In this document: positions 29,900-38,488 of the stretch, piece by piece
How the letters are laid out: each line of letters opens with the position of its first letter
How positions within the stretch are numbered: position 1 is the stretch's first letter
Assembly: GCA_030689605.1 (NCBI GenBank)
Contig: JAUYFT010000001.1
Span: 1-47,785 of the forward strand
Source of the DNA: a bacterium
GTDB lineage: Bacteria; Patescibacteriota; Patescibacteriia; PEXW01
DNA length: 47,785 nucleotides
Direction of reading: 5' to 3'
The notes under the pieces: generated by a model
The model's input: the letters and a program-made list of their open reading frames with translations, nothing else
Databases searched by the model: none
What the model was told of the DNA's origin: nothing
Position numbers and translations under genes: made by a program

Positions 29900-31297
<1,398 letters not shown>

Positions 31298-31304
31298 GAA
31301 TCTT

Positions 31305-31450
31305 TTCACCCTCATCCGGCCTTCGGCCTCCGGGGCGCTTCCAATGGGTCGCGCCCGCCTAGCGGCCCTTCTCCCAGCGGTAGAAGGGGCAATAAAAAAT
31401 CCTCCTCTCCTCGTAGGAGAGGATGCCCGAAGGGCAGGTGAGGTTTATCA
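31305..31450. repeat. Palindrome-rich intergenic element between atpD and atpC (CCCTCATCCGGCC ... GGTGAGG)
   Basis: CCGGCCTTCGGCCTCCGG, TCCTCTCCTCGTAGGAGAGGA and TGCCCGAAGGGCA palindromes. Confidence 0.55.
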
Positions 31451-31468
31451 GGCTCGCATCAAATATAT

Positions 31469-31897
31469 ATGTCTTCTCCCAAATCCCTCCACCTCACCAT
31501 CACCACCCCCGAACGCATTGTCCTCGAATCCGAGGTCAGCAGCGTGAACGTGCCCACAGTGGATGGGGAAATTGGTTTACTGCCCGATCATATCCCCCTG
31601 GTTTCGCTCCTCGCCCCAGGTGAGCTCCATGCTGTCACCACAGCAGGGGAAGAGCAAATCATGGCAGTGTCTGGTGGTTTTATAGAAGTCCGAGACAACC
31701 AGGTAGTCATCCTGGCCGACACCGCCGAACACGCCCACGAAATCGACGAACAACGCGCGGAAGAAGCTCGGCAGAAAGCCCAGCAAATCATGACCGAGCG
31801 CGCCACAGACGACGTCGGCTTCGCTGACGCGCAGGCTGCTATGGCCAAGGAGCTGGCGCGGTTGAAGGTTGTTAGAAAGAAACGGAAAAACGTGTAA
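31469..31897 (+). CDS. atpC: F0F1 ATP synthase subunit epsilon
   Basis: LHLTITTPERIVLESEVSSVNVPTVDGEIGLLPDHIPLVSLLAPGELH. Confidence 0.96.
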   Translation: MSSPKSLHLTITTPERIVLESEVSSVNVPTVDGEIGLLPDHIPLVSLLAPGELHAVTTAGEEQIMAVSGGFIEVRDNQVVILADTAEHAHEIDEQRAEEARQKAQQIMTERATDDVGFADAQAAMAKELARLKVVRKKRKNV

Positions 31898-34705: not shown

Positions 34706-35251
34706 ATGCCTATGCGCCTACCTACAATCTTGCGCTCTAGCGCCCTACTAATTTTCGCTGTAGCATTTGGCTTCGGCCTGACCGCCTGCAAGTCTGTAAC
34801 CGATAAAGCCGTTGAGCAGGCTGTTGAAAACACAACCGGCGGGGCTGTAGACGTGGATACGAGTCAGAATAAAGTCTCGGTGAACGTGAATGGTACGAGC
34901 TGGGAAACCGGCGACGCCGTAAGCTTACCGGCTAATTTTCCTGATGACATTTACGTTGTCGAAGGTACGTTGAAAGTGGCTATTGCCAATGATGCGGATC
35001 AAGGCTTCACCGTTTCGCTGGAAACGAGCAAATCGGTGAGCGACGCGAAGGCTTTGTACCAAACCGAACTCAAAGCTGACGGCTGGACAATAACTGGAAA
35101 CGTGGATATTCAGGGTTCTTCGTCTGTCATGGCGACGAAAGCGAAGCGTTCAGTGACAGTAGCCATTGGCCAAAATTCAGAAAAGACAGCTACTGTTGTG
35201 AGTATAAATACCTACACCGATACCACACCTGACGCGCCGACAACGAACTAA
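34706..35251 (+). CDS. Predicted lipoprotein of unknown function
   Basis: Signal peptide with LTAC lipobox; start set at MPMRLPT. Confidence 0.6.
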   Translation: MPMRLPTILRSSALLIFAVAFGFGLTACKSVTDKAVEQAVENTTGGAVDVDTSQNKVSVNVNGTSWETGDAVSLPANFPDDIYVVEGTLKVAIANDADQGFTVSLETSKSVSDAKALYQTELKADGWTITGNVDIQGSSSVMATKAKRSVTVAIGQNSEKTATVVSINTYTDTTPDAPTTN

Positions 35252-35270
35252 TTTTTTACCTGCTTTGCAG

Positions 35271-35292
35271 ACTGCCTACTCATGTGGGCAGT
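35271..35292 (+). terminator. Hairpin ACTGCC...GGCAGT followed by T-run
   Basis: Inverted repeat plus TTTTGCTTT. Confidence 0.6.
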
Positions 35293-35337
35293 TTTGCTTT
35301 CCCAGACACGCTCGGGACTTAGATGTATACTGTTTCC

Positions 35338-35381: not shown

Positions 35382-36173
35382 ATGGACATGCCTGCCCTCA
35401 CCCTAGAACAACGAAAGATAAAGAAGCTCCGACGATTCAATATCATTATGGCCTGTCTGCACTTCGGGCAGGGCGTGATTATGCTATACGCCAGCAGCAG
35501 TTTCAGCCTGCCGGTGACGACGGCGTATGTCGAAATGAATTCCGTAACCCAACTGCTCACCCCGGTGCTCAAGACCATAGCTGACCTGCAAATTGGCCCA
35601 CTCGTTGCGGGGTTCTTTTTCCTTTCGGCATTTGCGCATTTTGCCGTGTCCTGCCTGCCGACCGTCCGCGCCTGGTACGAGGCCAACCTGAAGAAAGGCG
35701 CTAACTATGCGCGCTGGATTGAGTACGCATTCTCCAGTTCACTCATGATAGTCATCGTCGTCATGCTCACGGGCATGGCCGACCTTTCCAGCCTTATCCT
35801 CATCTTCTTCCTGAACATGATGATGATTCTGTTCGGCTGGATTATGGAATTGCACAACCAAACCACCAAGACTACCGACTGGACGTCATTCATCTTCGGG
35901 AGTATTGCCGGCTTCATCCCTTGGCTCATCGTCGCACTCTACCTCTTCAACGCAGGGGGTGAAGGTGCCCGCGCACCGTCTTTCGTGTACTGGATTTTCT
36001 TCTCCATCTTCCTCTGCTTCAACGTTTTTGCTATTAGCATGATCCTGCAATACAAGAAGATTGGGAAGTGGAAAGATTACCTCTACGGCGAGCGCACGTA
36101 TATTATTTTAAGTCTGGTCGCCAAGTCGCTGCTAGCCTGGCAGGTGTTCGCGGGAACCCTGCGGCCGGTCTAG
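35382..36173 (+). CDS. Heliorhodopsin
   Basis: 7-TM pattern; RWIEYAFSSSLMIV (counterion Glu), conserved His in ACLHFGQG and FAHFAVS, SIAGFIPWL, GERTYIILSLVAKSLLAWQVFAGTLRP with Schiff-base Lys codon at 36123..36125; closely resembles the heliorhodopsin 48C12 pattern recalled from memory. Confidence 0.94.
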   Translation: MDMPALTLEQRKIKKLRRFNIIMACLHFGQGVIMLYASSSFSLPVTTAYVEMNSVTQLLTPVLKTIADLQIGPLVAGFFFLSAFAHFAVSCLPTVRAWYEANLKKGANYARWIEYAFSSSLMIVIVVMLTGMADLSSLILIFFLNMMMILFGWIMELHNQTTKTTDWTSFIFGSIAGFIPWLIVALYLFNAGGEGARAPSFVYWIFFSIFLCFNVFAISMILQYKKIGKWKDYLYGERTYIILSLVAKSLLAWQVFAGTLRPV

Positions 36174-36188
36174 TCTAATACGTACTCT

Positions 36189-36776
36189 ATGCCCAAGATT
36201 GAACAAGCATTCCCTGACTTCAACCTTGATACCTACCACCCGAACGACGGTAGCCGGAAGGATGTGACGCTAGCTACCTTCAAGGGGAAGTGGCTCGTGG
36301 TGTTTTTCTATCCGGCTGACTTCACGTACGTCTGCCCAACCGAACTTCGCGACATTGCCAGGCAGTACGCGGACATTCAGGCACTTGGTGCAGAGGTTCT
36401 TGCGGTGAGCACAGACACAGTCTACACCCATAAAGCGTGGGTCGAAACCGAGGCGTTACTCAAAGATGTGCGTTTCCCGCTGGCTGCGGATCACGCCGGC
36501 CTCCTTGCCCGGATGCTCGGTATTCTCAATGAAGTTAGCGGCATTGCAGATCGGGGCGTGTATATTGTCGATCCTGATGGTTATCTGCAATCTACAGAAG
36601 TCGTGGCCGAGAACATTGGCCGATCGGCAAGCGAAATAGTTCGGAAGCTCCGGGCTTTGACCTATGTGCGCAATAACCCTGGCCATGCCTGCCCGGTTAG
36701 TTGGGATACCAATGGCAAAGATCTCACGCCAGACCTAAAAATCTCCGGCAAGGTCGGCCAGGCATTAGGAGAGTAG
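36189..36776 (+). CDS. ahpC: 2-Cys peroxiredoxin (AhpC/TSA family)
   Basis: FYPADFTYVCPTEL (peroxidatic Cys), HACPVSW (resolving Cys). Confidence 0.93.
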   Translation: MPKIEQAFPDFNLDTYHPNDGSRKDVTLATFKGKWLVVFFYPADFTYVCPTELRDIARQYADIQALGAEVLAVSTDTVYTHKAWVETEALLKDVRFPLAADHAGLLARMLGILNEVSGIADRGVYIVDPDGYLQSTEVVAENIGRSASEIVRKLRALTYVRNNPGHACPVSWDTNGKDLTPDLKISGKVGQALGE

Positions 36777-36792
36777 TTGTACATAACATCCA

Positions 36793-37896
36793 CTACTGCA
36801 GCGTGAATACGGCAATTGTTGGGCGGTTGCCTATACGCATGGGCGGGCCCCAGCTGCCCACGCCAGGGGACGTGTACTCGTTGAATGTACCTTCGGTGTG
36901 CAGACCATCGTGGAAACCCTTGTACACCCACTTGGTTATTGTCCCGAACGGCCAGAGTTGGCCATCGTGCGTGTGACCAGCGAGGAGCAGGTTTACCCCT
37001 GCATTTTTTATCTGACCCACATACTTTGGTTCGTGCCACAGGACGATGCTTGGTTTGGCGGGTTCGAGTTTTTCCAGCAGAGGCGTAACATCCTTGGTGG
37101 TCGTGCCAATGGGGTAGTCAATGCCTAGTACTTGGATGCCTGCAACATCAACGATTTGGTCGCGGAGAATTGTTAGGGGTAAGTTTTTAATCGCCGCGAG
37201 CGACCGTTCAACACCAACATACGTCTCGTGGTTCCCCGTGATGTAGTAAGTCCCATTGGTTGACCGCAGGTCTTGCAGCGGTTCGGCTAGCGCGTTTAAG
37301 TCTCGGCCACCCCCATCAAAGAGATCCCCGGTGATGAATATTGCAGCTGGTTGCTGATCGTTGACTTGCTGCACGACATCCTGCAAAAAAATTTGCCGGT
37401 GTACCGGCCCGAGGTGAATGTCCGAGAGCTGAACAATTTTCTGCCCCCGCCACGCTTCTGGAAGGTTGGGGATGGTAACGCTGAACTGACGCACCACAGG
37501 GTGCCAAGCGTTCCATACTCCGTACGTTGAAACGCCCAGGGCTGCAGCCAGGAGGACGACGGTAACGGCCATCATGGGCACGTTCGCGCTAAAAATTCTA
37601 CCAAGCAACCATGCCCCCCAGGTAAGCGCTGCCGCAATGGATGCATACCAAACGAAACCCAGCCAGACCGAGGAAATGGTGTAGAGCAGGTTGGTGAGGA
37701 ATGCTTCTTTCCAAAAAACCAGTACGGACGTGATGCTGAAACTCACGGAGAGTACGAGGATTATTGTCAGTAAACTCCGACGGGCGCCACCGGCATGAAT
37801 GCCGAAGAATTTTACCCACGTCCCGTAGAGTCCTAGGTGCCCCAGGATGACGATCACCGTCGCCGTGAGAATGAAGAGTATCATGAGTCGATTCAT
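36793..37896 (-). CDS. Membrane-anchored metallophosphoesterase
   Basis: QKIVQLSDIHLGPVHR; FITGDLFDGGGRD; YITGNHETYVG; LLAGHTHDGQLWP; start trimmed to MNRLMILF. Confidence 0.9.
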   Translation of the reverse strand: MNRLMILFILTATVIVILGHLGLYGTWVKFFGIHAGGARRSLLTIILVLSVSFSITSVLVFWKEAFLTNLLYTISSVWLGFVWYASIAAALTWGAWLLGRIFSANVPMMAVTVVLLAAALGVSTYGVWNAWHPVVRQFSVTIPNLPEAWRGQKIVQLSDIHLGPVHRQIFLQDVVQQVNDQQPAAIFITGDLFDGGGRDLNALAEPLQDLRSTNGTYYITGNHETYVGVERSLAAIKNLPLTILRDQIVDVAGIQVLGIDYPIGTTTKDVTPLLEKLEPAKPSIVLWHEPKYVGQIKNAGVNLLLAGHTHDGQLWPFGTITKWVYKGFHDGLHTEGTFNEYTSPGVGSWGPPMRIGNRPTIAVFTLQ

Positions 37897-37978: not shown

Positions 37979-38488
37979 ATGCCCGTACAGCCAACTGCCC
38001 CCAAACCCGAACAGGAACCCGTAGATATTTTTGAGGTCGTTGATCGGGTTCCGGAACACGCCCCAGAGGTAAAGCCCGAGAAAGTACGGGAAGCTTTAGA
38101 GCAGCACGGGTCTAGGTTTGAGCAGCACCCCGAAGTTCCGTCCCAGGTGAAAGAGCTGCCCAGCCAAGTCCCACTCGTCACCATGCCCCTGCCAGTGGGC
38201 GCCGAAGAGCAACAGCTTAAGCAGATTGAAACCGTGCTTTCCGAAGGGCTCCACGACATATTCGTTGCCTTGCCACCCGCCGAGCAGCAGAAGTTCAAAG
38301 TAGCAGGGGAGCTAGCCGCTCGCGAAGTGTCTGGTCTCCTGGCGCAGGTTAAGGTGAAGCTAGGTGCAGTCATTGCCGTACTGCGGCGGTGGCTGGGCAC
38401 TCTGCCAGGCGTTAATAAGTTTTTCGTCGAGCAGGAGGCGAAAATTAAGGCCGAGAAGCTCGTCCGGTTAGTAGCGAAAGAAGAATAG
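37979..38488 (+). CDS. Hypothetical protein, upstream partner of VirD4/TraG-like ATPase
   Basis: ORF with TATACT-6 nt-ATG; stop 1 nt before next start. Confidence 0.55.
   Translation: MPVQPTAPKPEQEPVDIFEVVDRVPEHAPEVKPEKVREALEQHGSRFEQHPEVPSQVKELPSQVPLVTMPLPVGAEEQQLKQIETVLSEGLHDIFVALPPAEQQKFKVAGELAAREVSGLLAQVKVKLGAVIAVLRRWLGTLPGVNKFFVEQEAKIKAEKLVRLVAKEE

Follow-up and report, generated by a model that had tools for sequence, protein, structure and literature searches.

A predicted heliorhodopsin–peroxiredoxin bicistron that appears to be a one-species arrangement

The stretch of DNA analysed here (47,785 nucleotides over its full length, hereafter the window) carries a heliorhodopsin gene immediately followed, on the same strand, by a gene for a typical 2-Cys peroxiredoxin, with a predicted lipoprotein gene and part of an ATP synthase operon upstream and a phosphoesterase gene downstream (Table 1). 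The function of heliorhodopsins is still unsettled, and is at present approached mainly through the genes that surround them.

Table 1. Features at the heliorhodopsin locus, with positions counted from the first nucleotide of the window.
Feature	Position	Strand	Details
ATP synthase beta (atpD) and epsilon (atpC) genes	29927..31897	+	~3.5-5 kb upstream of the heliorhodopsin gene
Predicted lipoprotein, uncharacterised family	34706..35251	+	Lipobox Cys; upstream of the heliorhodopsin gene
Predicted intrinsic terminator	35267..35297	+	Boundary between lipoprotein and heliorhodopsin genes; -19.7 kcal/mol, z -5.3
Sigma-70-like promoter candidate for the gene pair	35303..35331	+	CAGACA-17-TATACT; consensus match only
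Heliorhodopsin gene	35382..36173	+	263 aa; Schiff-base Lys248, Glu114, His27, His86
Intergenic gap	36174..36188	+	15 bp, TCTAATACGTACTCT; no terminator, no Shine-Dalgarno-like motif
Typical 2-Cys peroxiredoxin gene (AhpC/Prx1 type)	36189..36776	+	195 aa; peroxidatic Cys49, resolving Cys168
Calcineurin-like phosphoesterase gene	36793..37896	-	Convergent, closes the two-gene unit; syntenic in a same-genus genome

The presence of a heliorhodopsin with a retinal-binding lysine, claimed in an initial annotation of this DNA, was clearly confirmed by profile and structure searches. The protein scored 321.8 bits against the Pfam profile PF18761 (cut-off 26.7), with the whole profile covered, and 328.8 bits against the NCBIfam equivalog NF038020 (cut-off 100). 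In a PDB search, it aligned end to end with TaHeR (6is6) and with the 48C12 heliorhodopsin (6su3), about half of its residues being common to crystallised TaHeR. Read from these alignments, the lysine in the motif SLVAK corresponds to Lys241 of 48C12, Glu114 occupies the counterion position (Glu107 in 48C12), and His27 (His23 in 48C12) and His86 match the conserved histidine pair. The SxxxK retinal lysine in helix 7, the glutamate counterion and the two histidines that mark members of the family are all present, and judged by its sequence the ORF is a bona fide, full-length heliorhodopsin gene. It opens at a GTG codon (35376) and its first ATG stands at 35382; since the homologue from the same genus begins MHMPAL..., the ATG is favoured as the start. 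The sister heliorhodopsin in the tree was that of this congener (contig L027, support 99), while a search of phages gave no match and a search of plasmids two distant ones.

The second gene was likewise correctly recognised as encoding an AhpC-type peroxiredoxin with both cysteine motifs, on the same strand. The protein matched PF00578 with 121.2 bits in a profile search, its peroxidatic cysteine lying in PADFTYVCPTE and its resolving cysteine in GHACPVSW. The AhpC-TSA domain, the PxxxTxxC motif and the C-terminal resolving cysteine of typical 2-Cys peroxiredoxins were all found, in agreement with an alignment to 1we0, and at the level of the primary structure this is a bona fide member of that group. 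Its score against the NCBIfam AhpC equivalog TIGR03137 (204.7 bits) fell under the curated cut-off of 272, so that it is best described as AhpC-like and was not filed as AhpC proper. It was the sole PF00578 protein found in the assembly (33 contigs, 83% complete), its codon usage and GC content agree with those of the host, and it has no obvious signal peptide. Thioredoxin reductase (TIGR01292) gave no match in the same 83% complete assembly (G000), and at least one match in each of the other 23 heliorhodopsin-bearing genomes of the class; the gene may sit in the missing ~17% of the genome.

With regard to transcription, the peroxiredoxin gene does begin exactly 15 bp after the heliorhodopsin stop codon, as had been noted, and the gap between them folds no better than its shuffles (z +0.5). 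By contrast, the hairpin upstream of the heliorhodopsin gene is accompanied by a T-rich run, and none of 200 shuffles was as good. Sigma-70-like sites before the heliorhodopsin gene were no commoner than in shuffled sequence. The pair shows the organisation seen in heliorhodopsin operon partners, namely a common strand, a short gap and no terminator between the genes. A terminator upstream, none in the gap and a convergent gene downstream make a two-gene transcript likely, and the pair is therefore likely to be a bicistron, as predicted here. The two-gene unit suggested in the initial annotation is thus plausible, whereas the coupling of light sensing to peroxide detoxification that it drew from this unit receives no support from conservation, as follows.

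PF18761 was run against three genome sets, made up of 193 relatives, 383 members of the class and 381 members of the phylum, and 75 heliorhodopsin loci of this phylum, 24 in the window's class and 51 outside it, were compared together with their flanks (up to ~9 kb on each side, shorter at contig ends). A peroxiredoxin gene adjacent to the heliorhodopsin gene, or anywhere within the inspected flanks, was found at one of the 75 loci, that of the window itself; the conservation in relatives by which the initial annotation proposed to check its reading was absent from all 74 others, and the recurrence in related genomes that characterises heliorhodopsin operon partners was not observed, even in the congener. 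The latter is indeed informative, as blastn showed contig L027 to be syntenic with the window both before and after the peroxiredoxin gene, with DNA identities of 74% for the heliorhodopsin gene, 65% for the phosphoesterase gene and 71% for the next gene (at 37979). Where the window has the peroxiredoxin gene, this contig has a strong terminator straight after the heliorhodopsin gene (z -4.2) and an unrelated ORF of 120-124 aa. No peroxiredoxin homologue was detected at E <= 1e-15 in the three nearest family members (G001, G002 and G003, 77-98% complete). Because the closest relatives carry the heliorhodopsin without the peroxiredoxin, the pair is, by genome comparison, a one-species arrangement and not a conserved light-to-antioxidant circuit. 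The peroxiredoxin gene was probably gained at this locus in the window's lineage; an alternative history of loss in the relatives is possible, if less economical. No recent named donor was found, the best matches (~50% identity) being to Thermoplasmata and Heimdallarchaeota on long branches.

At the scale of the class, related peroxiredoxins are carried by other families as well (69 of 193 genomes), and none of those adjoins a heliorhodopsin gene. A general association between the two proteins in the class was rejected, peroxiredoxins of this type being present in 7 of 24 genomes with a heliorhodopsin versus 62 of 169 without (p = 0.65). A striking heliorhodopsin–antioxidant pair can thus be an arrangement of one species, and in view of the present case, single adjacencies should not be taken as conserved modules before the syntenic locus has been checked in sister species.

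Close neighbours of heliorhodopsin genes were indeed frequent and diverse. With mechanical ORF calling, a same-strand ORF lay within 60 bp downstream at ~29 of the 75 loci and upstream at ~31, nearly all from different families. Redox genes accounted for two of these ~60 tight neighbours, the peroxiredoxin of the window and, at a locus of the same phylum outside the window's class (L168), a desulfoferrodoxin (superoxide reductase) gene lying 10 bp upstream on the same strand (p ~0.08, a value that rests on an assumed redox fraction of 0.8%). Redox enrichment across the 75 loci was accordingly not significant as counted, individual cases being suggestive, including MsrA near the heliorhodopsin gene at L034 and L049. 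Two loci from two families (L033 and L043) have a pyrimidine-dimer DNA glycosylase gene directly downstream, at 124 and 12 bp respectively (PF03013 in L043, a homologue detected by BLAST in L033), a UV-repair partner comparable to the photolyase of the reported heliorhodopsin–photolyase pair. Stand-alone response-regulator receiver proteins (PF00072) adjoin the heliorhodopsin gene at two loci of the window's family, upstream by ~75 bp in L027 and downstream by 370 bp in L028, in agreement with a published link between heliorhodopsins and two-component systems; no such receiver is adjacent to the heliorhodopsin gene of the window. A conserved protein of 167-172 aa without a Pfam match was also encoded near heliorhodopsin genes at six loci (L178, L203, L205, L181, L176 and L171), directly adjoining them in L178 and L203.

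Within the class, the predicted lipoprotein was a more regular companion. Its gene lies upstream of the heliorhodopsin gene in the window (125 bp), in L029 (19 bp) and in L035 (415 bp); in L043 it is found downstream, at a distance of 1.6 kb. Members of the family were found in 13 of 24 heliorhodopsin genomes versus 2 of 169 others of the class (E <= 1e-20, kinship being ignored), using a query profile built from heliorhodopsin neighbours. This co-occurrence is taken as a lead only, because kinship was uncontrolled and the profile itself came from such neighbours; it is nevertheless a better lead than the peroxiredoxin in these genomes. The family has no Pfam match, and a predicted model of moderate confidence (pLDDT 68) gave weak structural matches, several of them Mog1/PsbP/DcrB-like. 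The heliorhodopsin gene also lies 1-6 kb from the atpD-atpC end of the ATP synthase operon at 5 of the 24 loci of the class (the window, L028, L035, L039 and L040, from four families), a proximity that looks like inherited gene order and whose chance estimate is post hoc; as a general feature of heliorhodopsins this linkage was rejected, since it occurred at none of the 51 loci outside the class. The C-terminus of heliorhodopsins faces outward by published topology. It is conceivable, although we rate this reading as improbable, that the conserved partner in the class is this extracytoplasmic lipoprotein and not the peroxiredoxin, that the heliorhodopsin gene has stood beside F-type ATP synthase genes since ancient times, and that the heliorhodopsin may signal through the lipoprotein or be sensed by it.

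As for the chromophore, the initial annotation had seen no retinal biosynthesis gene in the window, an observation that extends to the assembly (83% complete): neither PF15461 (BCD/Blh) nor PF03055 (RPE65) was matched in it or in the 23 other heliorhodopsin genomes of the class, bearing in mind that no positive control matched PF15461, whereas two matched PF03055. As no enzyme of the BCD or RPE65 type was found in these 24 genomes, retinal is probably imported, and uptake of retinal or carotenoids from neighbours is probably the source, a route proposed for Saccharibacteria (PMC9296517).

From a mechanistic point of view, the reading that we favour, with reasonable though not high confidence, is that of a lineage-specific unit in which the two genes would simply be co-expressed, without dedicated signalling. 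An AhpC-type peroxiredoxin gene would have been inserted between the heliorhodopsin gene and the convergent phosphoesterase gene in the lineage of the window species, at a site occupied in the congener by a terminator and a small gene, and would now be read through from the heliorhodopsin promoter. The peroxiredoxin would clear peroxides in the cytosol, while the heliorhodopsin, carrying retinal taken up from neighbours, would sense light; both activities may fit a sunlit, oxidatively stressed life, and a dedicated signal from one protein to the other would not be required. The adjacency could also be accidental, the genes sharing a transcript or merely a neighbourhood without any joint function, which we consider rather unlikely while giving it due weight. 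Tight same-strand neighbours of heliorhodopsin genes are indeed common and change freely, the two redox genes among them are not a significant number, and the chance that one or more of the loci would have a peroxiredoxin gene following the heliorhodopsin gene is ~3-7%, taking ~1000 genes per genome. On the other side, redox genes near heliorhodopsin genes are reported to be enriched across phyla (PMC8612252), and the peroxiredoxin gene has been kept intact, with the codon usage and GC content of its host. Adjacency alone is in any case weak evidence for joint function.

A more specific relationship may be imagined by analogy, in which the heliorhodopsin would serve as a light-gated regulator, directly binding the peroxiredoxin encoded next to it and modulating its peroxidase activity, which light would raise. 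There are precedents for action on operon neighbours, as heliorhodopsins have been reported to bind glutamine synthetase (PMC9529153), a class 2 CPD photolyase (PMC9769723) and the ABC transporter OmrDE (PMC11109279), each encoded in their operon; the present pair is tight and on one strand, and an encounter of its products on the cytoplasmic side of the membrane is conceivable, since published topology places the heliorhodopsin N-terminus there and the peroxiredoxin has no obvious signal peptide. However, a pair seen at a single locus and absent from the rest of the genus, two proteins that do not co-occur over 193 genomes, and a recently placed peroxiredoxin that had little time for the co-evolution of an interface make such modulation unlikely. 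That the pair might be an ancestral module lost in the relatives appears very improbable: related peroxiredoxins do exist in other families of the class, but none adjoins a heliorhodopsin gene, the closest identities (~50%) equal those of archaeal homologues, and the family would have to have lost the gene repeatedly, if incomplete genomes do not account for its absence. Lineage-specific gain with simple co-expression thus remains our preferred reading.

Compared with known systems, the core of the window heliorhodopsin shows no difference from TaHeR (6is6, 7u55) and 48C12 (6su3), with the same retinal lysine, glutamate counterion and histidines, and differs from them in its gene neighbours. 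Similarly, the peroxiredoxin shares both catalytic cysteines and an AhpC-like length with AhpC/2-Cys peroxiredoxins (1we0, 4o5r), while remaining under the TIGR03137 cut-off. As in the operon-partner systems mentioned above, the heliorhodopsin gene is predicted to share an operon with the gene of a second protein, which in those systems is soluble or membrane-bound; there, binding was demonstrated and the pairing is found again in related genomes, whereas the window peroxiredoxin does not recur and is a putative binding partner. The link between heliorhodopsins and oxidative stress, which the initial annotation mentioned as a proposal, had been published before (PMC8612252, PMC9166423). Bulzu et al. 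(2021; PMC8612252) linked heliorhodopsins with genes for glutaredoxin, glutathione peroxidase (GSHPx), catalase and peroxiredoxin and proposed a role in light-induced oxidative-stress defence. Redox genes beside the heliorhodopsin gene are thus common to their neighbourhoods and to the window, where by contrast the gap is 15 bp (operon criterion <10 bp in their study), the redox gene encodes an AhpC-type 2-Cys peroxiredoxin, the host has a small, Patescibacteria-like genome and conservation of the pair is lacking. The likely placement of the host in Patescibacteria/CPR follows from genome sizes of 0.5-2 Mb in the phylum sample and from the distribution of heliorhodopsins; a saccharibacterial origin was rejected, the TM7-305 probe site being missing from its genome and from 57 related ones. 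Chiriac et al. (2022; PMC9166423) described heliorhodopsins of freshwater CPR bacteria and extended the antioxidant link to this group, with SLVAK-bearing heliorhodopsins in reduced genomes alongside antioxidant enzymes, as here, the co-occurrence being at the level of the genome and not that of a heliorhodopsin–peroxiredoxin pair. Since both the redox link and heliorhodopsins in such bacteria were published before, the pair in the window adds one more example to a type of arrangement already described.
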